Positions 96-12,057 of a stretch of DNA of 64,000 nt are shown here, piece by piece. Location of the stretch: contig NZ_PGFQ01000001.1 in the NCBI RefSeq assembly GCF_029870955.1, positions 124,001 through 188,000 on the forward strand. Reading direction: 5' to 3'. The first letter of the stretch is position 1. Each line of letters starts with the position of its first letter. The translations under genes were made by a program, and so were the position numbers. The notes beneath the pieces are model-generated. The model worked only from the letters and a program-made list of their open reading frames with translations, had not been told where the DNA came from and ran no database searches. Source of the DNA: Sulfitobacter faviae (lineage in GTDB: Bacteria > Pseudomonadota > Alphaproteobacteria > Rhodobacterales > Rhodobacteraceae).

Positions 96-1412
96 TCAAC
101 GGCCCATCAAGCCCGGTAACCAAGTGCCAATGCCCGGCAGCCAGACGACCAGCGCCAGCACGAAGAGCTTGATTAACAAAAAGGGCATCACCGAGGCATA
201 GATTTGCGGCATCCGGATCTCCTCGGGGGCCACGCCCCGCATGACGAAGAGGAGCAGCCCGAAGGGCGGTGTCAGCAAGCCGATTTCCATGGTCAGCAGG
301 TAAACCACGCCGAGGGTCAGCTCATTGATCTCCATCGCGCCCGCTAGGGGTACGAAAACCGGGACCGTCACCATCAACATCGACACTTGATCAATGAAAC
401 ACCCCAGAAAAAGCAGGATCGCAATCATCCCCAAAAGCACCATCAAGGGCGTCGGATCGACCGCGTTGATCGCATTGATCAACCCGTTGGTCGCGCCGGA
501 AAAGCTCAGCACCTGAGCAAAGGTCTGGCTGGCCGCAATGATGAACAGGATCATCACCGACAGTTTCAGCGTCTCCATCAGAGCAAGACCCATCTTCTCC
601 CAACTCAAGGCCCGATAGGCTGCCCCGATGATCACCGCCGTGATACTGCCCAGCGCAGCGCTCTCCGTAGGCGTGGCGATCCCTGCCAGCAGGGAGCCGA
701 TCACCACCGCGAAAAGAACCGTCAGCGGCAAGACGTAGATTGCGAAGGGCGTCCACCGGTCGCGCAGCGGCATATCCTCGTAAACATCGGGCGGCGCGAC
801 CTTTGGGTCCAATATACTGCGCCCCACCACATAGGCCACGAAAAGCACCGCCAGCAGCAGGGCCGGAAGCACCCCCGCGATCAGCAGCCCCGCGATGGAA
901 ATACCGGCAAGCGAACCCACCAGCACCGCCAGCGCCGAGGGCGGGATCAGCATCGCAATCGCGCCCGAAGCCATGATCGGCCCCATGGCCATCGAGGGGT
1001 GGTAGCCGCGTTTCAGCATCCCCGGCAGCAGCGTGCCGCCCAGCATCGCGGTATTGGCGATGGTCGAGCCTGAGAGTGCCGCAAAGATCGTGCCGCCAAA
1101 GATCGTCACCACTGACATGCGGCCCGGGATGCGCGTCACCACCCGCTCAATGGCGTCGATGGCGCGGTGCGCCACCCCGGTCTGGAAGAGGATCTCCCCC
1201 ATCAGGATGAACAGGGGTATCGGGGCAAGCTGGAAATTCGCCACCGACTGCGCCGAGTTGCGCGCCAGTTGCAGAATGCCGCGCTCGCCCCCCAGCACGA
1301 AGTATGCGCCCACGGTGGTCACGGCGATAAAGGCAAAGGCGACTGGCAAGCCGATCAGCAAAAGCACGGCGAGGCTGCCCAGCATGAACGTCAGGATCAA
1401 AGCCCAATCCAT
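96..1412 (-). CDS. dctM: TRAP transporter large permease, DctM family
   Basis: This is the large membrane subunit of a tripartite ATP-independent periplasmic transporter, which imports an organic acid or similar solute using an ion gradient. The protein is almost entirely hydrophobic segments with family-typical stretches such as FILMGEILFQTG, the glycine-rich ALSGSTIANTAMLGG and the C-terminal LTPPFGLLLF. At about 438 residues the length is normal. I place the start at the ATG at 1412, one base after the dctQ stop; a GTG at 1424 in the same frame would add four residues and overlap dctQ. It is the last gene of dctP-dctQ-dctM. The substrate cannot be told from the sequence. Confidence 0.93.
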   Translation of the reverse strand: MDWALILTFMLGSLAVLLLIGLPVAFAFIAVTTVGAYFVLGGERGILQLARNSAQSVANFQLAPIPLFILMGEILFQTGVAHRAIDAIERVVTRIPGRMSVVTIFGGTIFAALSGSTIANTAMLGGTLLPGMLKRGYHPSMAMGPIMASGAIAMLIPPSALAVLVGSLAGISIAGLLIAGVLPALLLAVLFVAYVVGRSILDPKVAPPDVYEDMPLRDRWTPFAIYVLPLTVLFAVVIGSLLAGIATPTESAALGSITAVIIGAAYRALSWEKMGLALMETLKLSVMILFIIAASQTFAQVLSFSGATNGLINAINAVDPTPLMVLLGMIAILLFLGCFIDQVSMLMVTVPVFVPLAGAMEINELTLGVVYLLTMEIGLLTPPFGLLLFVMRGVAPEEIRMPQIYASVMPFLLIKLFVLALVVWLPGIGTWLPGLMGR

Positions 1413-1413
1413 C

Positions 1414-1908
1414 TCAAAGACCACTCAGACTACGCTCGGCCGTTTCCGGATAGAAAAGGCGGCGAATGAAAATAACCGTGCAAAGCGCCAATGACAGCGG
1501 CACAAAGGCCAGCATCCACCATTCCGGGATGACGAATGACGTGCGGATCATCGACCCGCGCGCGGCGGAGGCCAGCACCGCTTGTAACCCGTACCACCCC
1601 AGCACCCCCGCCGTAACAGCGCCGATAGCGCTGGTGAGACGGGTGAGCTGATGGGCCGTGCGTGGCGCAAGATTGCTGGTGATCAGATCGACCTTCACAT
1701 GCCCCCCAATCGACAACACCCATGGCGCGCCTAGGAAAGTGGCGATCATCAGCGCATATTGGATCGCATCCAACGCGCCATAGACCACCGGCAGGCCAAG
1801 ATTGCGCAGCACAACATTGAGAGCGATGAACACCGCGATCACCCCGAGGATACCAGCCGAAAAGACGGCCAGCCCCCGGAGTGTCCGGTCAAACATTCTA
1901 GAGATCAT
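1414..1908 (-). CDS. dctQ: TRAP transporter small permease, DctQ family
   Basis: The 164-residue protein has four hydrophobic segments, as expected for the small membrane subunit that couples the binding protein to DctM in the inner membrane. The central sequence GAPWVLSIGGHVKVDL is characteristic of DctQ proteins, and a basic segment closes the C terminus. It lies between dctP (7 bases upstream of its start) and dctM (one base after its stop), so all three are very probably one transcript. Confidence 0.92.
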   Translation of the reverse strand: MISRMFDRTLRGLAVFSAGILGVIAVFIALNVVLRNLGLPVVYGALDAIQYALMIATFLGAPWVLSIGGHVKVDLITSNLAPRTAHQLTRLTSAIGAVTAGVLGWYGLQAVLASAARGSMIRTSFVIPEWWMLAFVPLSLALCTVIFIRRLFYPETAERSLSGL

Positions 1909-1915
1909 TGGAGGA

Positions 1916-2887
1916 TCACTTGGTCATGCAGGCGCGCATCTGCTGCGCAAGATCGGCATCGACCTCTTCCACCGCGGCCCAACCGGCATCGCGGGCGGCA
2001 GCGATCCAAGTCTCGGCATCGGCCTCGCCAAAGGTGATCGTCTCGATACCCGCCTCGGCCTGCGCCGCATATTCCGAGGCGTTCCGATCCGCGTTGTCGT
2101 TGTTCAGCTCTTCCATCCAAGCGGCACCTTCCGCCAACTTGGCGCGCTGCGCCTCCGTCAGCCCGTTCCAAGTATCAAGGTTCACGAGAACGTTAACATC
2201 GACGTTGTAAAAGCTCGGGTCGACACGGTACTTCGTCTGCTCGTCCCAACCAAGGTCCAGCACCCCCTGCGAGGGCCAGCCGTAGCCGTCAATCGCACCA
2301 CGCTCCAGCGCGCTGTAGACCTCGCCCGGCGCGGTCCGCACGAGGTTGGCACCAAGCTGCGTAAACATCGCTTGGTAAACCGGCGTGGTGCGGATGGTCA
2401 GACCGCTCAGATCCGGCCCCTCGACCGGTTTGGTGAGATAAAGGTGATAGCCGATTCCGTCGCCCGCATGGGCGAGGTATTTCACATTCATCTGCTCTTG
2501 ATGGATACGGTCGACCAGTTCATAGCAGCCGTTGGCGCGCTGGTCCTGAATGGTGTTCTCGGCCAAATGCAGTGCGTCGCCGGTGGGCAGCAGGTTGGGG
2601 TAATAGGCCGTGGTGTTGTTGGCGATGTCGACGACGCCGGACTGCACCGCATTGCCCAGTTCAAATGGCGGCACGGCCTCAGGACCGCCGACCAGATTGA
2701 TCTGCACGACCCCCTTGCCGTTCTCGTTGATCCACTCGACAAAGGACTCGAACTCGCGGCTGAAAGCGGTGCCGAGGGTGAAGGCCGAAACGGCCCGCAG
2801 GGTCACTTCTTCGGCCTGAGCGATGCTGCCGGAGGCAAATGTGCTGACGGCAAAGACCGCCGCGCTAAGCGTGGTTGTTGTTTTCAT
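1916..2887 (-). CDS. dctP: TRAP transporter substrate-binding protein, DctP family
   Basis: Periplasmic solute-binding subunit that delivers its ligand to DctQM. The start is the ATG at 2887, preceded on the minus strand by GGGAGA; an upstream in-frame start would add 27 residues with no signal-peptide character. From this start the protein begins with MKTTTTLSAAVFAVST and continues to an AQA-like cleavage region, a clear Sec signal peptide. The middle contains the family region LSGLTIRTTPVYQAMF and a GAIDGYGWP segment. About 323 residues is normal. The upstream region holds inverted repeats (2941-2969 and 2976-2996), which suggests local repression or activation. The ligand is unknown. Confidence 0.92.
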   Translation of the reverse strand: MKTTTTLSAAVFAVSTFASGSIAQAEEVTLRAVSAFTLGTAFSREFESFVEWINENGKGVVQINLVGGPEAVPPFELGNAVQSGVVDIANNTTAYYPNLLPTGDALHLAENTIQDQRANGCYELVDRIHQEQMNVKYLAHAGDGIGYHLYLTKPVEGPDLSGLTIRTTPVYQAMFTQLGANLVRTAPGEVYSALERGAIDGYGWPSQGVLDLGWDEQTKYRVDPSFYNVDVNVLVNLDTWNGLTEAQRAKLAEGAAWMEELNNDNADRNASEYAAQAEAGIETITFGEADAETWIAAARDAGWAAVEEVDADLAQQMRACMTK

Positions 2888-2940
2888 GGTCGTCTCCCAG
2901 TTGTGATCAAAAGCCCGCGATCTTTGCCCCGGTGCTCTCG

Positions 2941-2969
2941 CATGCAAATGCATAATATGTATCTGCATG
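2941..2969. promoter_or_regulatory. imperfect palindrome upstream of dctP, candidate operator
   Basis: CATGCAAATGCAT at 2941-2953 and ATGTATCTGCATG at 2957-2969 are inverted repeats matching at 11 of 13 positions across a 3-base spacer. The site lies 54-82 bases upstream of the dctP start. TRAP operons are often controlled by a dedicated regulator, but no regulator gene lies beside this one in the window, so the binding protein is unknown. Confidence 0.5.
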
Positions 2970-3097: not shown

Positions 3098-3112
3098 GAA
3101 CATATATAGAAC
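3098..3112 (+). promoter_or_regulatory. LexA box GAAC-N7-GAAC upstream of the radical SAM-UdgX operon
   Basis: GAAC at 3098-3101 and GAAC at 3109-3112 are separated by exactly seven bases (ATATATA). Alphaproteobacterial LexA binds the direct repeat GTTC-N7-GTTC, which reads as GAAC-N7-GAAC on the other strand. The spacer is itself -10-like, and the box ends two bases before the ATG at 3115, so bound LexA would block transcription. A second site of the same form precedes imuA. Confidence 0.85.
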
Positions 3113-3114
3113 GC

Positions 3115-4349
3115 ATGACCAAACAGACCCTCGATCAGAAACTGGCGATTCTCAGCGACGCGGCGAAATACGACGCCTCCTGCGCCTCCTCGGGCTCCAC
3201 CAAGCGCGACTCGCGCGATGGCAAGGGTCTGGGCTCCAACGAAGGCAGCGGCATCTGCCACGCCTATGCCCCGGACGGGCGGTGCATCAGCCTGCTCAAG
3301 ATCCTGATGACGAATTTCTGCATCTACGATTGCAGCTATTGCATCAACCGCGTCTCCTCGAACGTGGAGCGCGCGCGCTTCAGCGTGGACGAGGTGGTAA
3401 AACTCACCATCGAGTTCTACCGCCGCAATTATATCGAGGGGCTGTTCCTGTCCTCGGGCGTGATCCGCTCACCCGATGCCACGATGTCCGACATGGTGCA
3501 GATCGCCCGCAAGCTGCGCCACGAGGAGAACTTCCGCGGCTACATCCACCTCAAGGCGATCCCCGACGCCTCGCCCGAGTTGATCGAGGAAGCGGGTCGT
3601 CTGGCGGACCGTCTGTCGATCAACGTGGAGCTGCCCACCGACACGGCGGTGCAGCAATATGCGCCCGAGAAAAAGCCCGAGCAGATCCGCCGCGCCATGG
3701 CGAACGTGCGCATGACTAAGGAGGCGAGCAAGGAGAAGTCCTTCTCCGGCAAACGCCCGCCGCGCTTTGCGCCCGCGGGCCAGTCGACGCAGATGATCAT
3801 CGGCGCGGATGGGTCGAACGACGCCACCGTGCTGGGGCAATCGACGCGGCTCTATTCCAGCTACAAGCTGAAGCGGGTCTATTACTCCGCCTTCTCGCCC
3901 ATCCCCGACAGTTCGTCGAAACTGCCGCTGATCCGCCCGCCTCTGCAACGTGAGCACCGGCTTTATCAGGCCGACTGGCTGCTGCGGTTCTACGACTTCC
4001 AACTGGACGAGATCACCTCCGTCACCCGCGACGGCAACCTCGATCTGGAGATCGACCCCAAGCTTGCCTGGGCGTTGGTGCACCGCGAGCACTTCCCGCT
4101 CGACGTCAACCGCGCCAGCCGCGAGATGCTGCTGCGGGTGCCGGGGTTCGGAGTGAAGACGGTAAACCGCATCCTCGCTGCGCGTCGCCATCGCGCGTTG
4201 CGCTACGAAGACCTGACCCGCATGGGCGCCTCGATGAAAAAGGCCCGCGCCTTCGTCACCGCGGGGGCTGGACCCCCGGCGGCCTCACCGACAGCGCCAA
4301 CCTGCGCGCGCGTTTCGCGCCGCCGCCTGAGCAATTGACCCTGTTCTGA
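3115..4349 (+). CDS. putative DNA modification/repair radical SAM protein (frameshifted near the 3' end)
   Basis: This matches the radical SAM family that travels with a uracil-DNA glycosylase (TIGR03916-like). The cluster motif CIYDCSYC (CxxxCxxC) lies at about residues 72-79. A helix-hairpin-helix DNA-binding segment (VPGFGVKTVNRIL) sits near residues 342-354. The reaction is unknown; a role on damaged DNA is inferred. The start is the ATG at 3115, just after a LexA box. Around 4260-4266 one base seems to be missing from a G run. Restoring it gives the expected tail ending LTLF, with a stop at 4347-4349 that overlaps the next gene's ATG (TGATG), so the pair is translationally coupled. Confidence 0.85.
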
Positions 4350-5779
4350 TGCACCGCGTCTCCCTGCCCCCCATCGGCACCGCCAAGGCATGGCGCGAGG
4401 CGGCGCGTGGCTTTCTGGCCGCGGGCGTGCCGCCCGAGCAGATCCTCTGGGGCGATCATGCCGCCGCGCCTGACCTTTTCGGCGCGGAGGCCGCACCGGC
4501 CGCCTCGGGCCGCACCGCAGTGCCGCGCAGCTTCGTGTCGATGGCCGAGACGGCGGTCTGGCACAGCGACCCGGAACGTTTCGCGCGGCTTTATGCCTTC
4601 CTCTGGCGCCTGAAGGACGCGCCGCATCTGATGTCAGACCGCGGCGATGCCGACCTCGCCGTCTTGCGGGGGATGGAGAAGAACGTCCGCCGCTGCCAGC
4701 ACAAGATGAAAGCCTTCGTCCGCTTCCGCGAGATCGGTGATCCGAACGCCCCGCGCCGCAGCTTCGCCGCATGGTTCGAGCCCACGCATCACACGGTGGA
4801 GCCTACGGCGGATTTCTTCGTGCGGCGGTTTTCCGACATGGACTGGCGCATTCTCACGCCCGATGTCTCGGCTATCTTCGAGGGCGGCAAGCTCAGCTTT
4901 CAGGAAGGCCACACCAAGCCCGACCTGCCCGAGGACGCGGGCGAGCAGTTGTGGATCACCTACTTCCAGAACATCTTCAATCCCGCCCGCCTGATGGTGA
5001 AGGCGATGCAATCGGAGATGCCCAAGAAATACTGGAAGAACATGCCTGAGGCCGCTTTCATCCCCCAGATGATCGCCGAGGCCCCGGCCCGCGCCCGCGC
5101 CATGGCCGAAGCCGCCCCGACCCTGCCGCCGGCGCGGATGGACCGGGTGCAGGCGCAGCTTTCGGCCTTTGATTCCGCTTGGGACGGCCCGGCCGAAGAG
5201 CTTCCGTCCGCGATCCGCGCCTGCACCCGCTGCCCGCTGCATTGCCACGCCACGCAGGCCGTGCCGGGCGAAGGGCCACGAGATGCCGATCTGATGGTTG
5301 TGGGCGAACAGCCCGGCGATCAAGAAGACCTCGCGGGCCGCCCCTTCGTCGGACCGGCGGGGCAGATGTTCGACCGCATTGCCGGGGAAGCGGGCCTCGA
5401 CCGAGACGCCGCCTTCGTCACCAATGCGGTTAAACACTTCAAATTCACCGCCCGCGGCAAACGCCGCATCCATCAGCGCCCCGAGACGCCGGAGATCGAC
5501 CAGTGCCGCTGGTGGATGAACGCCGAGGTGGCGCAGGTGCAGCCGAAACTCATCCTCGCCATGGGCGCCACCGCGGCGCAGAGCCTGACCGGCAAGGGCG
5601 CGGGCATCTTGAAACGCCGCGGCACGATAGAGGCGGGGCCGGAGGGCATTCCGGTGTTGATCACCCTGCACCCCTCCTACCTCTTGCGCGTCCCCGACCC
5701 CGCGGCGCGCGAGGAGGCCGAGGCGCAGTTCCGCTCCGACCTCGCGATGGCGGCGCGGATGATGGCCGAGGCGGCTTAA
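4349..5779 (+). CDS. UdgX-type uracil-DNA glycosylase fused to an N-terminal DUF4130/TIGR03915 domain
   Basis: Residues 1 to about 260 match the TIGR03915/DUF4130 domain that partners the radical SAM protein. Residues from about 285 form a family-4-like uracil-DNA glycosylase with cysteines in CTRCPLHC (a probable iron-sulfur ligand set), the active-site loop GEQPGDQED near 317, the UdgX signature KRRIHQ near 371-376 and HPSYLLR near 441. In UdgX the histidine of KRRIHQ forms a covalent bond to the DNA sugar after uracil removal; that histidine is present here. At 476 residues this is the usual fused length. Its start overlaps the radical SAM stop, under a LexA box, and its end overlaps the convergent yedK by four bases. 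Confidence 0.93.
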   Translation: MHRVSLPPIGTAKAWREAARGFLAAGVPPEQILWGDHAAAPDLFGAEAAPAASGRTAVPRSFVSMAETAVWHSDPERFARLYAFLWRLKDAPHLMSDRGDADLAVLRGMEKNVRRCQHKMKAFVRFREIGDPNAPRRSFAAWFEPTHHTVEPTADFFVRRFSDMDWRILTPDVSAIFEGGKLSFQEGHTKPDLPEDAGEQLWITYFQNIFNPARLMVKAMQSEMPKKYWKNMPEAAFIPQMIAEAPARARAMAEAAPTLPPARMDRVQAQLSAFDSAWDGPAEELPSAIRACTRCPLHCHATQAVPGEGPRDADLMVVGEQPGDQEDLAGRPFVGPAGQMFDRIAGEAGLDRDAAFVTNAVKHFKFTARGKRRIHQRPETPEIDQCRWWMNAEVAQVQPKLILAMGATAAQSLTGKGAGILKRRGTIEAGPEGIPVLITLHPSYLLRVPDPAAREEAEAQFRSDLAMAARMMAEAA

Positions 5780-6414
5780 TCCTCGGGGTCAATGACCTGA
5801 AGGGCGCCGTCGGGCAGCGGACGTTGCAGCCTTGGCAGGTCGGCGGTCTCGGCGCTGAGCCACGTCAGCACCTCATCGGGCGTGGTCAGGATCACCGGCA
5901 TCGCCTTGGGGTGCACGGCACCGACCTCGGCATTGGGCTCGGTCGTCAGGAAGCCATAGAGGTTGTCGGTAGTCTCCCCGTCCTTCAGTTTTCGCACGGA
6001 GGTCCACTGCGTCCAGACCCCGGCGAAGAAGGCCAGCGGGCGGTCCTCGCCAAGCGCGAACCAGACCGGGCGCGAGCGTTCGCCGGGGCGGTTCAGCGGC
6101 TCGGAAAAGGCGGTGAAGGGCACGACGCAGCGATGCTCCCGCACCAGCCAGCGCCGCCAATGCGGTGAGGCGATGTTGCGGATGTTGGTGACGCCGCGGT
6201 CAGTCTTCTTGCCCTTGAGCGCAAAGGCCGGGGACGGCATCCCCCACCGCATCATCTCAAGCACCGGGCCGGTGTCGCCGTGGCGCACTACCGGGGCGGG
6301 GTAATCGGGGTAGATGCCAGGCATGGGCGGCAGATTGCCTGCATTGTCCTCGATCCCGTCGAACCAGCCGCGGATCGCGTCCTGCCCTTTGGTGAGGGAG
6401 TAGAGATTGCACAT
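5776..6414 (-). CDS. yedK: SOS response-associated peptidase (SRAP/YedK family)
   Basis: SRAP proteins use the amino group of Cys2 to form a thiazolidine bond with abasic sites in single-stranded DNA, shielding them. Starting at the ATG at 6414 the protein begins MCNLY, placing the catalytic cysteine at position 2 as required. A strong AGGAGG site precedes it, and an upstream in-frame start would destroy that N terminus. The catalytic Glu region (AFSEP) and the His of VHPKAMPVIL are present. About 212 residues is typical. It is divergent from imuA, sharing a 145-bp promoter region that contains a LexA box, and convergent with the UdgX gene. Confidence 0.93.
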   Translation of the reverse strand: MCNLYSLTKGQDAIRGWFDGIEDNAGNLPPMPGIYPDYPAPVVRHGDTGPVLEMMRWGMPSPAFALKGKKTDRGVTNIRNIASPHWRRWLVREHRCVVPFTAFSEPLNRPGERSRPVWFALGEDRPLAFFAGVWTQWTSVRKLKDGETTDNLYGFLTTEPNAEVGAVHPKAMPVILTTPDEVLTWLSAETADLPRLQRPLPDGALQVIDPED

Positions 6415-6530: not shown

Positions 6531-6545
6531 GAACAAAATATGAAC
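6531..6545 (+). promoter_or_regulatory. LexA box GAAC-N7-GAAC upstream of imuA (and divergent yedK)
   Basis: GAAC at 6531-6534 and 6542-6545 are separated by seven bases (AAAATAT). The site is 14 bases before the imuA ATG at 6560 and about 120 bases upstream of the yedK start. It matches the alphaproteobacterial LexA direct repeat and the box at 3098-3112. The imuA-imuB-dnaE2 cassette is a known LexA target in this class. Confidence 0.88.
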
Positions 6546-6559
6546 ATATGGAGTCGTGC

Positions 6560-7294
6560 ATGACAACCGATTCTACATATGGGCAGGTCCTTACCCTGCC
6601 ACGGCGACGGCCGTCGACACCGCCCGAACCGGGGGTTCTGGCCACCCATGCGCCGCTGACGGATGTCTTTCCGCAGGCCTTCGCCAGTGCTTCGGCCAGT
6701 GGCTTCGTCCTGTCGCTCTTGCCGCGCGGCAAGGGGCCGGTGCTTTGGGTGCAGGACTTCCTGTCGCGGCGCGAGAACGGCGCGCCCTATACGCCGAGCC
6801 TTGCAGCCTTCGGGCTGGAGCAGCCGGTGCTTCTGGTCACCGCCAGCCACCCGCGCGACGTGCTTTGGACGATGGAGGAAGGCGCGGCCTGCGCGGGGCT
6901 TTCAGCCGTGGTGGGGGAGGTGCATGGCGGGCCGGAGGTGCTGGATTTCACCGCCACCAAACGGCTGTCGCTGCGGGCCGAGGCTTCGGGCGTGCCGCTC
7001 TACCTCATCCGCAGCGGCGACCCCGGGGGCCTGAGCGCGGCGCGGATGCGCTGGCGCATCGCCTCCCTGCCCGCACAGGCGCATCCCGACGATCCGCAGG
7101 CCCCGGGCGCGGCCCGCTGGGATCTGGAGCTGTTTCGCGCGCGCGGCCATGCGCCGGGGCGTTGGGTGGCCGATCATGAGCCCGACAAACGCCACAGCCC
7201 CCGCGCCGCGGATCGTCTCCGTCTGGTTCCCCGATCTGACGATGGAGCGCTGGCGCCGGGTGATCAGCCAATACCGCAGCGTTCCGGGGGATGA
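6560..7294 (+). CDS. imuA: ImuA, RecA-like accessory protein of the mutagenic translesion cassette
   Basis: ImuA-type proteins are RecA-fold relatives required with ImuB and DnaE2 for damage-induced mutagenesis. Recognisable stretches are LPRGKGPVLWVQDF and the closing APGAARWDLELFRARG. No intact Walker A is visible, as is usual. I choose the ATG at 6560, spaced seven bases from GGAG; ATGs at 6548 and 6524 are in frame but run into the LexA box. The frame continues to 7294 and overlaps imuB by about 119 bases. That is unusually long, so the true 3' end may be shorter if a base is missing near 7180. Confidence 0.82.
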   Translation: MTTDSTYGQVLTLPRRRPSTPPEPGVLATHAPLTDVFPQAFASASASGFVLSLLPRGKGPVLWVQDFLSRRENGAPYTPSLAAFGLEQPVLLVTASHPRDVLWTMEEGAACAGLSAVVGEVHGGPEVLDFTATKRLSLRAEASGVPLYLIRSGDPGGLSAARMRWRIASLPAQAHPDDPQAPGAARWDLELFRARGHAPGRWVADHEPDKRHSPRAADRLRLVPRSDDGALAPGDQPIPQRSGG

Positions 7295-8729
7295 GGTGCC
7301 GGTGGTCCTGTCGTGCGACGGGACGCACGGGCCGGTGGTCCATGGGCTGAGCGCCGCCGCCCGCGCCCGCGGCATCGAGACGGGCGCGCGGGTGGTCGAC
7401 GTGCAGGCGATCCATCCCGATCTGCATGTCGAGCCTGCCGATCTGGAGGGCGACGCCGCGCTGGTCAAACGGCTGGTGCATTGGGCGCGGCGCTGGTGCC
7501 CCTGGACGGCGCGGGACGTCGATCACGGTCTGCTGCTCGATGTGACTGGCTGCACGCATCTGTTTGGCGGCGAGGCGGCGATGCTGCGCGACATCCGCAG
7601 CCGCTTCGCGCTGCAGGGGCTGACCGCGCGCTGCGCCATGGCCCCCACCCCCGGGGCCGCGCAGGCGCTGGCGCGTTTCGGCTCCGGCGCGCAGATCTGC
7701 GGGGCCGAGGACGTGGGCGCCGCCCTCGCCCCCCTGCCCGTCGCCGCCCTGCGGCTGGATACGCAGACCACGCGGCTGCTGGACCGGCTCGGCCTCAAGA
7801 CCATCGGCGCGCTGAGCGATCTGCCCCGCGCCGCACTGATGCGCCGCTTCGCCAGCCTGAAGCCCGAGCGCAACCCGCTGATCCTGCTCGACAAAGCGCT
7901 CGGCAAGGCCGCCGACCCGCTGAACGCCCCGCCCGACCACCGTCACTTCATGGCCCGCAGCCGCCTGGCTGAGCCGGTGCTCGACCCCGCCCCGCATCTG
8001 CCCGCGCTGGTCGAGGACCTCTGCGCGCAACTGGCCCGGGCGGAACTGGGTGCGCGGCGGCTGCGGCTGACGGTCTACCGCATCGACGGCGACTGGCGCG
8101 GCCTCGACACAGCCACCGCCCGCGCCAGCCGGGACGCCGCCCATCTGCGCCGCCTTTTCGACGGCAAGCTCGAGAACATCGACAGCGGCTTTGGCTTCGA
8201 CCTCATGACGCTGGAGGCGCTGGCGAGCGAGCCGCTGCCGCTGATGCAGGACCACCTCGACGGCAAGCGCGACCCTTCGGCGGACGTGGCCGGGCTCTTG
8301 GACCGTCTGGTCGCCAAGCTCGGCCCCGAAAAGGTGAGCTGGCCGCAGTGGCGCGAGACCCACAAGCCCGAGGCGGTGGAAGAACGCGCCCCGGCCCTCC
8401 AGACCAACCCCACCGCCGCGCCATTGCTGCTGCGCGAGCGCCCGCTGCGCCTGCTCACTCCGCCCGAGGAGGTGCGCGTGATCTACGCCGTGCCCGAAGG
8501 CCCGCCCTCGCAGTTCAACTGGCGCCGCGTCACCTACAAGACCACCCGCCACGCCGGGCCCGAGCGCATCGCGCCGGAATGGTGGCGCGACCGCCCCGGC
8601 ACCCGTCTGCGCGATTATTACAAGGTGGAGGTGGCGGGCGGCCAGCGCTTCTGGCTCTACCGCGAAGGCGTGATCCACGACGGCCGCGGGGCCGAGCCGC
8701 GCTGGTTCCTGCACGGGATGTTCGCCTGA
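7176..8729 (+). CDS. imuB: ImuB, Y-family polymerase-like protein
   Basis: ImuB resembles DinB-type Y-family polymerases but lacks the catalytic acidic residues. It acts as the adaptor that brings DnaE2 to the sliding clamp. The protein starts MSPTNATAPAPRIVSVWFPDL, carries the family stretch DHGLLLDVTGCTHLFGGE near residue 115, and ends in the typical RFWLYREG and WFLHGMFA block. At 517 residues the length is normal. The start lies inside imuA and the stop overlaps the dnaE2 ATG (TGATG at 8727-8731), so the genes are coupled within the LexA-controlled operon. Confidence 0.92.
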   Translation: MSPTNATAPAPRIVSVWFPDLTMERWRRVISQYRSVPGDEVPVVLSCDGTHGPVVHGLSAAARARGIETGARVVDVQAIHPDLHVEPADLEGDAALVKRLVHWARRWCPWTARDVDHGLLLDVTGCTHLFGGEAAMLRDIRSRFALQGLTARCAMAPTPGAAQALARFGSGAQICGAEDVGAALAPLPVAALRLDTQTTRLLDRLGLKTIGALSDLPRAALMRRFASLKPERNPLILLDKALGKAADPLNAPPDHRHFMARSRLAEPVLDPAPHLPALVEDLCAQLARAELGARRLRLTVYRIDGDWRGLDTATARASRDAAHLRRLFDGKLENIDSGFGFDLMTLEALASEPLPLMQDHLDGKRDPSADVAGLLDRLVAKLGPEKVSWPQWRETHKPEAVEERAPALQTNPTAAPLLLRERPLRLLTPPEEVRVIYAVPEGPPSQFNWRRVTYKTTRHAGPERIAPEWWRDRPGTRLRDYYKVEVAGGQRFWLYREGVIHDGRGAEPRWFLHGMFA

Positions 8730-11700
8730 TGCCGCAGCAAGAGGGACATAAGCGCCGCACCTTGGGCGAGGACGGGCTCAGCGCCCCACCGCGAGCGGAC
8801 TACGTCGAGTTCGGGCTGGCCAGTTGTTTTTCCTTCCTGCGCGCCGCCTCGGACGCCGTCGATCTGGTCGAGACGGCGCATCACCACGGCTACGACAGCC
8901 TCGGCATCGCGGATCACAACACGCTGGCGGGCGTGGTGCGGCTGCATGTGGAGGCGGAAAAGGCCCATATCCGCCCCTGATCGGCGCGCGTCTGGTGCTG
9001 CTCTGCGGGACCGAGATCCTCGCCTACCCGCAGGACCGCGCCGCCTATGCGCGGCTCTCGACGCTGCTCTCGGCGGGCAAGATGCAATCGGTCGACGGCG
9101 AATGGCAGCAAAAGGGCGAGACCCATCTGACGTTAGAAATGCTGCAAGGCCATGCCGAAGGGCTGCACCTCATCGTCATGCCGCCCGAGAACCTCGACCT
9201 CTTCGCCGCGGGCCTGCCGCGGCTGCTGAAGGCGCTGCCGGGGATGCGCCATATCGGCGCGAGTTTCCTCTACCGGGGCGATGATCGCGCGCGGATCAAC
9301 CGGCTGGATGCGCTGGCCCGCGCCCATGGGCTGAGGCTGCTTGCCACCAACGACGTGCTCTACCACGCCCGCCACCGGCGGCCCTTGCAGGACGTGATGG
9401 TGGCGATCCGCGAAGGCGTGATCGTGCCCAAGGCAGGCTATCTGCTGGCCGCCAATGCCGAGCGACACCTGAAATCCCCCGCGGCGATGATCCGCCTCTT
9501 CGCCGACTGGCCCCATGCCATCGCCGAGACCCGCAAGCTGGCGGATAAGATCACCTTCCGCCTCACCGATCTGGCCTATGAATACCCGCATGAGATCGTC
9601 CCCGAGGGCCGCAGCCCGATGGAGGAACTGGCCCGCCTGACATGGGAGGGCGCGGCCCGGCGCTACCCCGAAGGCGTGCCCGAAGCGGTGAAAAAGACCA
9701 TCGAGAAGGAATTCGCCCTGATCTCCTCCAAGAAGATCGCGCGTTATTTCCTGACCATCTACGACATCGTCCGCTTCGCCCGCGAGGAGGCCGAGCCGCC
9801 GATCCTCTGCCAGGGGCGCGGCTCGGCGGCCAATTCCGCCGTCTGTTTTTGTCTCGGCATCACCTCGGTCGACCCGGCGGTGCATGACCTGCTCTTCGAG
9901 CGGTTCCTCAGCGAGGAACGCGACGAGCCGCCCGACATCGACGTCGATTTCGAGCATGAGCGGCGCGAGGAAGTCATCCAGTACATGTACGGCAAATACG
10001 GCCGCCACCGCGCCGGGCTCTGCGCCACGGTGATCCACTACCGCCCGCGCTCGGCCATTCGCGAGGTCGGCAAGGCGATGGGGATTTCCGAAGACGTGAC
10101 CTCGAAACTCGCCGGCACCGTCTGGGGCAGTTTCGAGGGTGAGATGGACGACGCCCGCGCCCGCGAGGCCGGACTGGACCTCTCGGACCCCTACCTGCGC
10201 ATGGTGCTGAAGCTCGCCTCCCAGATGATCGGCATGCCACGGCACCTGAGCCAGCACGTCGGCGGCTTCATCCTGACCGAACGCCCCCTGACCGAGATCG
10301 TGCCCATCGGCAACGGCGCCATGCCCGAGCGCAGTTTCATCGAGTGGGACAAGGACGACATCGACGCCTTGCAGATCTTCAAGGTCGATATCCTCGCGCT
10401 CGGCATGCTCACCTGCATCGCCAAATGCTTCGACCTGATCGAGGCGCATTACGACCGCCCGCTGGAACTGGCCACGGTGCCGGTGGAAGATCACGAGGAC
10501 GACGCCACCGGGCGGCCCACCTACGACATGCTCTGCCGGGGCGACAGCCTTGGCGTGTTTCAGGTCGAAAGCCGGGCGCAGATGGCGATGCTGCCGAAAC
10601 TGCGGCCCCGCGTCTTCTACGATCTGGTGATCGAGGTCGCCATCGTCCGCCCCGGCCCGATCCAAGGCGACATGGTCCACCCCTACCTGCGCCGCCGTCA
10701 GGGGCTCGAGAGCGTCGTCTACCCCGCCCCCGGCCCGGCCTATCCGCAGGACGAGTTGTTCAGCATCCTCAGCCGGACTTTGGGCGTGCCGATCTTTCAG
10801 GAACAGGCGATGAAGATCTCCATCGACGCGGCGCGCTTCTCGCCCGCCGAGGCCAATGAGCTGCGCAAGGCCATGGCCACCTTCCGCTCGCGCGGGACGA
10901 TTGAGAAGCTGCAGGACAAGATGGTGGGCCGCATGACCAAACGCGGCTACGATCCGGTCTTCGCGCAGCGCTGTTTCGACCAGATCAAGGGCTTTGGCGA
11001 ATACGGTTTCCCCGAAAGCCATGCGGCGAGTTTCGCCAAGCTGGTCTATGTCTCGTCATGGATGAAATGCCACTACCCGGCGGCCTTTGCCTGCGCGCTC
11101 TTGAACTCCCAGCCGATGGGGTTTTACGCGCCGGCGCAGATCGTGCGCGATGCGCGTGAACATCAGGTCGAGGTGCGCGATGTGGATGTGAACCTCTCGG
11201 ACTGGAACTGCACGCTGGAGCCTCGTGGGGACGGTTTCGCCCTGCGGCTGGGGCTGCGCATGGTCGACGGGCTGCAGGAAAAGGCCGGCGCGCGGATCAT
11301 GGACCGGCGCGACGCGCCTTACGCCGATGTCGAAGATCTCAAGTCCCGCGCGGGTCTCGATGCCAAGGCGATCCGCCAGCTCGCCGCCGCCGATACGATG
11401 CGCAGCATGGGGATCGATCGGCGCCAAGCGCTCTGGCAGGCCCAAGGGCTGCGCGACGCGCCCGCCTTGCCGATCTTCGACCATGCCGAGGCTTCGGCCC
11501 GCGGCCCGGAACCGGAGGTGCATCTGCCGGTGATGCCAAAGGCGGAACAGGTCGTGGCCGACTATCAGACGATGCGCCTGTCGCTGAAGGCGCATCCGAT
11601 GTCCTTCTACCGCGGGAGCCTTGCGGCGCAGGGGTTCGCCTCGGCGCGAGACCTTTCGCGCATGGGCCACGGGCGGCGGGTGAAGCTGGCGGGGCTGGTG

Positions 11701-12057
11701 CTGGTGCGCCAGAAACCCGGCAGCGCCAAGGGGGTGTGCTTCATCACGCTGGAGGATGAGTTTGGCGTCGCCAACCTCGTGATCTGGCCAAACATGTTCA
11801 AGCTCTACCGCCCCACGATCATGTCGTCGCGGCTTCTGGTCGTGGAGGGGCGCGTGCAGACCGACGGGCGGGTGATCCATGTGGTGGCCGAGCGGCTCGA
11901 AAACCGCTCCGACCGGCTGGCGGCGCTGTCGGACGCGCCGATGCCCGGCATCACGACGCCGGGCGATCACCCGACCCATCCGCTGCCCGGTCAGGTGGCC
12001 ATGCACGGCCACCCGCGTGATGCCAAGGTGATCCCCAAATCGCGGGATTTTCATTAA
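8729..12057 (+). CDS. dnaE2: error-prone DNA polymerase DnaE2 (one apparent frameshift)
   Basis: DnaE2 is the C-family polymerase that carries out damage-induced translesion synthesis with ImuA and ImuB. The N terminus is a PHP domain (CFSFLRAASDAVDLVE, then GIADHNTLAG). Catalytic aspartates lie in PDIDVDFEHERR near residue 400 and in KVDILALGML. The protein ends in an OB-fold region and the family-typical SRDFH. At 8974-8977 a run of four Cs appears to lack one C: the frame from 8729 stops at about 8980, while the remainder continues in the next frame. Restored length is about 1109 residues, normal for DnaE2. The start overlaps the imuB stop. Confidence 0.9.

Follow-up and report, generated by a model that had tools for sequence, protein, structure and literature searches.

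The 64,000-nucleotide stretch of contig NZ_PGFQ01000001.1 of Sulfitobacter faviae that was analysed here (hereafter, the window) contains a two-gene operon in which a gene for a radical S-adenosylmethionine (SAM) protein is followed by a gene for a fusion of DUF4130 with a UdgX-type uracil-DNA glycosylase (UDG), both behind a LexA-type box (Table 1). The genome comprises 3.83 Mb in five contigs, and the closest named relatives at the radical-SAM gene belong to Sulfitobacter (97-95% identity). The radical-SAM protein scores 586 bits against the TIGR03916 profile (cut-off 343.5); we take this family to be the same as COG4277. The locus is genuine: it has a conserved SOS-type box and belongs to a gene pair that is already known but still unsolved. 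An initial annotation, made from the sequence alone, had picked out the pair and its box, and its observations were in part confirmed and its interpretation in part supported; it had overlooked the DUF4130 domain (approximately residues 1-235 of the second protein), three further invariant cysteines of the radical-SAM protein, and the neighbouring SRAP and imuA-imuB-dnaE2 genes.

Table 1. The operon and its surroundings (window positions)
Feature	Position	Strand	Remarks
LexA (SOS) box GAACATATATAGAAC	3098..3112	+	ends 2 nt before radical-SAM start ATG 3115
Radical-SAM gene, TIGR03916	3115..4338	+	407 aa as assembled; off family frame from ~residue 385
Six-cysteine stretch	3172..3342	+	C23, C48, C57 and cluster motif C69-x3-C73-x2-C76
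Out-of-frame rest of radical-SAM tail	4263..4349	+	ends in clamp-type QLTLF; three-frame translation; in frame in P0001
DUF4130-UdgX fusion gene	4349..5779	+	476 aa, two domains, start ATG 4349
DUF4130 / TIGR03915 part of fusion	4349..5053	+	200 bits, cut-off 112.25, residues 10-235
UdgX / TIGR03914 domain of fusion	5060..5749	+	346 bits, cut-off 190
R-loop KRRIH	5459..5473	+	counterpart of covalent His109 of MsmUdgX
SRAP gene	5776..6414	-	PF02586 match on 5776-6408; start MCNL, Cys2; convergent with operon
Second LexA-type box GAACAAAATATGAAC	6531..6545	+	2 nt before imuA start codon
imuA	6548..7294	+	weak NF033429 match below cut-off (6551-7294); precedes imuB, dnaE2
imuB	7149..8729	+	PF00817; open frame, true start may be further in
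dnaE2	8729..12057	+	1-nt frameshift near 8977 in this assembly

The CxxxCxxC cluster motif, described as intact in the initial annotation, is indeed complete (residues 69-76), and all six cysteines of the stretch, namely C23, C48, C57, C69, C73 and C76, are present in the window protein and invariant in an alignment of 49 diverse members taken from 76 selected radical-SAM proteins (alignment A1). C23, C48 and C57 might bind a second Fe-S cluster or serve as hydrogen donors; in the structure model, the confidence for residues 24-47 is low. The helix-hairpin-helix that had been noted earlier is matched by HHH_5, but at 20.3 bits, under the Pfam gathering score of 27; HHH_3 is found at E <= 1 in 49/49 members of A1. 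A further feature lies at the C-terminus. The bacterial consensus for binding to the sliding clamp is QL[S/D]LF or QxxLF, as given in the accessible part of PMC12309361. Within their last 15 residues, 118 of 126 distinct radical-SAM proteins carry a clamp-type Q[LM]x[LM][FLIW] motif, which is QLSLF in 34 of them, as compared to a mean of 0.34 for shuffled tails (the set includes the window protein and leaves out the duplicates L144-L165, incomplete frames and proteins shorter than 380 aa). The eight proteins that lack the strict motif are that of the window and seven with looser variants (QLGFGF, QGSLF, QLSLAL, QASLF, QMALAL). The stretch before the motif differs in length among distant members, as expected of a short linear motif, and the model confidence (pLDDT) of the last six residues is below 50, which would suit a flexible tail. 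It appears likely that this tail is a clamp tether.

In the window itself the motif is encoded out of frame. The frame that begins at ATG 3115 stops at 4336-4338, 10 nt before ATG 4349, and so lacks the C-terminus that is intact in the relatives, whose proteins mostly have 410 or 411 residues (403 to 450 in more distant ones). Compared with three close relatives (L010, L040 and L011), a single base is missing from the window near 4262-4265, and its dnaE2 shows a second 1-nt shift near 8977 relative to the same three; P0001, which differs from the window protein by one substitution before the shift, is intact, with the full 411-aa tail. Since two single-base losses occur within 5 kb, an error of sequencing or assembly appears the likelier cause of the shift near 4263, although the two shifts may instead mark a strain that is losing the cassette. 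The TGATG overlap by which the two genes had been said to be coupled holds for many relatives, where the radical-SAM stop TGA overlaps the next ATG, but not for this assembly, in which the radical-SAM frame ends at 4338 and the TGA at 4347-4349 is in a different frame.

The second protein has the score and the motifs of UdgX: the KRRIH motif noted in the initial annotation is present, and GEQPG, TNAV and HPSYLLR (HPSxLLR in the family) are likewise intact. In UdgX of Mycobacterium smegmatis (MsmUdgX), His109 is the histidine that links covalently to DNA (PMC10359453, accessible part). The DUF4130 part also appears, from its conservation, to be enzyme-like: in an alignment of 49 sequences, 6 of them stand-alone DUF4130 (alignment A2), 29 positions are invariant, including R115, H118, R125, E144, H147, D196, N211 and R214.

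When considering SOS control, it is important to note that the bare GAAC-N7-GAAC pattern is not enriched, with 2 occurrences in the window against 1.47 expected, and 88 matches in the whole genome against 141 for the reversed control pattern. The significance of the box, therefore, rests on its position and not on the pattern. The perfect box that had been reported two bases before the first ATG is present at exactly this place, and among distinct upstream regions of the alphaproteobacterial type, 113 out of 121 show a perfect box no more than 60 nt from the start, whereas single-base shuffles of these regions yield a mean of 0.17; the gap between box and start is 2 nt in 81 of the regions and 3 nt in 17, that is, 2-3 nt in 98. 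(Regions with identical last 60 nt were counted once; L069, which has no upstream sequence, the fragment L113, L144-L175 and L181 upward were left out, and 10 loci of other classes, together with L174, were handled separately.) Among the eight loci without a perfect box in 60 nt, L124, L126 and L127 have a box in the opposite orientation approximately 97 nt upstream, L077 and L078 have a site with one mismatch, and no box was seen in L060, L117 and L135.

In other classes of the phylum the type of the box is different. CTGT-N8-ACAG is the gammaproteobacterial LexA box, and it occurs in perfect form at 7 of 11 radical-SAM loci of other classes (a raw count with no chance control), where it begins 56 to 8 nt upstream of the assigned start, with the site of L180 overlapping the assigned start codon; L177 has one mismatch, and in L131, L176 and L114 no box was seen. 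That the box type changes while the gene stays is hard to explain without LexA. The genome of the window also contains lexA and recA, with the same box type 30 and 56-65 nt before their starts, respectively, which together with the conserved box at the promoter is what would be expected of a member of the LexA regulon. The spacer of the box is biased to ATAT, so that a -10-like element would fall inside the box, with no space for a Shine-Dalgarno sequence; we infer a leaderless mRNA that would be covered by LexA. Thus, the upstream footprinting and the change of box type strongly support the SOS control that had been predicted for the operon. A box of the SOS type also stands 17 nt before the radical-SAM gene of an IMG/VR contig (L192:5001-6239), beside phage-like frames, possibly at the edge of a prophage.

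The distribution of the families was followed in 249 genomes drawn from the phylum, with TIGRFAM cut-offs and with overlaps counted by hand. TIGR03916 is above cut-off in 39 of these genomes and TIGR03915 (DUF4130) in 41, and all 39 radical-SAM carriers have DUF4130 (39/41 in reverse). UdgX (TIGR03914) is found in 38 genomes, 29 of them among the 39 radical-SAM carriers, leaving 9/38 UdgX genomes without the radical-SAM gene. The control genome, that of Caulobacter vibrioides, has matches to all three families. To our knowledge, TIGRFAM remarks that these families always occur paired. The counts bear out the pairing noticed in the initial annotation, but it is DUF4130 that constantly accompanies the radical-SAM protein, whereas UdgX is frequent but optional, and the earlier suggestion that the radical-SAM enzyme makes or repairs a lesion handled by UdgX cannot be the whole story. 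In a set of 80 named loci, DUF4130 was found at every locus and a UDG domain at 74; of the remaining six, L009 is cut short by the edge of its contig. Five loci with DUF4130 and no nearby UdgX (L062, L064, L065, L066, L070) encode radical-SAM proteins that are 76-81% identical, which indicates that UdgX is gained or lost between related genomes. In two loci (L166 and L167, from G286 and G298), approximately 3 kb of other sequence lies between the radical-SAM and DUF4130-UdgX genes. One record, titled Nocardioides marinus (L013), contains a radical-SAM gene 92% identical to that of the window and is probably mislabelled or contaminated.

In the window, the SRAP gene, presumably of the HMCES/YedK type and with Cys2, stands between the operon and imuA, the box before imuA has the same 2-nt geometry as that before the radical-SAM gene, and the dnaE2 start forms a TGATG overlap with the end of imuB; on the other side (96-2968, minus strand) three genes resemble by eye a TRAP-type transporter (two membrane proteins and one periplasmic binding protein). 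Stretches of up to 19.9 kb (at most ~9.4 kb on each side, some ending at contig ends) centred on the radical-SAM gene in each of the other 38 carriers contain imuA, imuB or dnaE2 in six cases, as compared to approximately 0.23 expected if 27 kb of a 4.5-Mb genome is counted as near, an assumption that ignores kinship. Three of these six genomes belong to family f31, where the operons are divergent with one SOS box between them, and three to f13. The same genes flank 5 of the 80 named loci: L010, L011 and L040 are arranged as in the window, and in the Tateyamaria loci L047 and L051 the arrangement is convergent. In L203, L205, L206, L232 and L233 (from G093, G216, G168, G257 and G274, respectively) the operon is divergent from imuA-imuB. 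Two of these genomes, G257 and G274, have DUF4130-UdgX without the radical-SAM gene, and in both (2/2) it lies beside imuA-imuB; G257 keeps all 29 of the invariant DUF4130 positions, and G274 has 5 of them changed or missing. In G257, sequence resembling that before the start codon of the radical-SAM gene persists although the gene itself is gone. SRAP adjoins the operon in 3 of the 80 named loci (L010, L011, L040), and three Limimaricola loci (L073, L077, L080) have, 4-5 kb downstream and on the other strand, a distant match to SRAP (29-33% identity).

The linkage is closest in f13, which is probably Sphingomonadaceae and where DUF4130 is found in 82 of 119 genomes, one stretch being read for each of the 82. 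In 23 of these carriers the genes for the radical-SAM protein, DUF4130-UdgX and DnaE2 follow each other in that order on one strand; 18 of these arrays are preceded by imuA-imuB and 3 others by imuB alone. By estimate, dnaE2 begins 1-15 nt downstream of the stop codon of UdgX in 18 of the 23 loci, while the distance is 91-137 nt in the other 5. In the remaining 59 carriers dnaE2 was not found within approximately 5 to 9 kb on each side. An SOS box precedes the radical-SAM gene in all 23 dnaE2-linked loci and in 75 of 77 frames overall, and the strict clamp motif is present in 70 of the 77, two of the other seven being broken frames (78 loci were counted, one of them without a start codon call). 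Co-occurrence points in the same direction: with kinship ignored throughout and four matches of ~30% identity excluded, DnaE2 is found in 34/39 radical-SAM genomes versus 56/210 others (p 1e-12) and, outside Alphaproteobacteria, in 7/11 versus 26/171 (p 7e-4).

Taken together, gene content, the conservation of box and motifs, co-occurrence and linkage form the basis of the following reading, which we put forward as quite possible, if somewhat short of probable: the operon, behind its conserved LexA-type box, encodes a radical-SAM protein and a DUF4130-UdgX protein that act together on damaged template DNA during translesion synthesis by ImuA-ImuB-DnaE2. DNA damage would lift LexA, predicted to bind the box, from a site that extends over the promoter as far as the start codon. 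Stalled forks would then be reached by the radical-SAM protein via its C-terminal motif, through predicted binding to the sliding clamp (DnaN), and via the putative helix-hairpin-helix, and there the protein would process a damaged base by means of the 5'-deoxyadenosyl radical, with DUF4130 as the constant partner and, perhaps, with participation of the possible second Fe-S centre at C23, C48 and C57. In genomes that have it, UdgX would remove uracil and then cap the resulting abasic site by a predicted covalent bond with its histidine, much like SRAP; SRAP proteins cap abasic sites in single-stranded DNA. A bolder version, which we regard as rather doubtful, is that the module is an unrecognised catalytic arm of the bacterial mutasome, in which a radical enzyme tethered to the clamp rewrites template lesions, or removes them, ahead of DnaE2, while UdgX, together with SRAP where available, caps the resulting abasic sites, so that SOS mutagenesis would be coupled to radical chemistry on DNA. 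The predicted reaction of the radical-SAM/DUF4130 pair remains a guess. Were the proposal true, translesion synthesis would include radical enzymology, and the odd suicide chemistry of UdgX would gain a cellular setting.

Several facts weigh against a joint role with the mutasome. With the queries used and in the stretches read, imu and dnaE2 genes were not found in 32 of the 38 sampled genomes and in 75 of the 80 named loci, so that the mutasome can hardly be an absolute requirement. The association with DnaE2 is weaker within Alphaproteobacteria (27/28 versus 30/39, p 0.03, again with kinship ignored), and at the threshold applied, DnaE2 is absent from 5 of the 39 genomes with the radical-SAM gene. 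UdgX over cut-off is missing in 10 of the 39, the window's own radical-SAM frame does not include the clamp motif, and no sequence or fold match names a substrate.

It is also conceivable, although we consider it unlikely, that the radical-SAM protein directly reverses a pyrimidine lesion, as spore photoproduct lyase (SplB) does, with DUF4130 helping and UdgX being an added uracil trap that does not share the substrate. The fact that UdgX is dispensable in ten genomes would fit, as would the term 'SplB-like radical SAM photolyases', which the accessible part of PMC3765255 uses for proteins that accompany DUF4130 and UDG. Nothing observed speaks directly against this scenario; SplB is not among the fold matches listed, an absence that excludes nothing. 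The accessible part of the same paper also suggests that these proteins 'might modify thymines', which would fit the idea, one half of the proposal in the initial annotation, that the radical-SAM protein makes the substrate of UdgX. It would turn a base, by demethylation or otherwise, into uracil or something similar, which UdgX would afterwards remove and bind. The presence of UdgX in most radical-SAM genomes speaks for this scenario, but the ten pairs without UdgX over cut-off and the nine UdgX genomes without the radical-SAM gene make it, in our view, improbable.

The same two groups of genomes count against a scenario in which the radical-SAM/DUF4130 pair serves to release or resolve the covalent adduct that UdgX, or SRAP, forms with DNA. 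Here, the sharing of an operon with a suicide cross-linker and the SRAP gene next door in the window are suggestive, but SRAP adjoins the operon in so few loci, even with the distant Limimaricola matches considered, that we hold adduct release to be quite improbable. Finally, the operon might be mobile and act in defence against phages or plasmids by attacking DNA that contains uracil or is modified. The radical-SAM gene is found on 158 of 72,556 plasmid records, for instance, of Phaeobacter and Sulfitobacter pontiacus, 142 of them predicted to be non-mobilizable; neither protein, however, has a PADLOC match, and the LexA-type box and the linkage to the polymerase cassette point to repair, so that we see very little chance of a defence function.

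The gene pair and its SOS control, as far as can be judged from the accessible parts of three papers, are already in print (PMC8565304, PMC3828012, PMC3765255). An SOS-regulated COG1573-COG4277 operon has been described in Bacteroidetes, with reference to Verrucomicrobia and Alphaproteobacteria, and called a putative base excision repair system (PMC8565304). It resembles the operon considered here in consisting of two genes, for a UDG and a partner protein, and in its predicted LexA control; the accessible text of that account, however, mentions neither a clamp motif nor additional cysteines, nor does it place the genes within the imuA-imuB-dnaE2 cassette. The pair and its SOS control have likewise been described in Clostridium acetobutylicum (CAC3343-CAC3344), where, unlike here, LexA is of the Gram-positive type and, in the part of the source available, UdgX is not mentioned (PMC3828012). 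The same association, namely DUF4130 with SplB-like radical SAM and UDG, in an SOS context that includes SRAP and ImuB-C, appears in PMC3765255, a gene-context study that, in its accessible part, names DUF4130 once, in the legend of Figure 1, and contains no experiments on this pair. No report of the reaction of TIGR03916 or DUF4130 was found, although the pair occurs in 39 of 249 genomes of the phylum, and in the open-licence literature, as far as accessible, no paper was found that deals with the clamp-type tail, the three additional cysteines or the operon with dnaE2.

Among the characterised relatives, MsmUdgX is known from solved chains of approximately 210 residues that comprise the UDG domain alone (PMC10359453, accessible part; PDB 6ail), whereas UdgX of the window is fused to DUF4130 and encoded downstream of a radical-SAM gene. 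The ImuA-ImuB-DnaE2 mutasome shares with the operon the geometry of the box before imuA in the window and is physically linked to it in several lineages, but the accessible literature lists neither the radical-SAM protein nor the DUF4130-UdgX protein among its components. What is new here, then, is the clamp-type tail, six invariant cysteines instead of three, DUF4130 as the constant partner, and the adjacency to imuA-imuB-dnaE2. The most useful of these additions are the likely clamp tether and the repeated merger with the DnaE2 cassette: together, the clamp motif and the dnaE2 operon turn a vague 'DNA repair role' into a specific and cheaply testable one.

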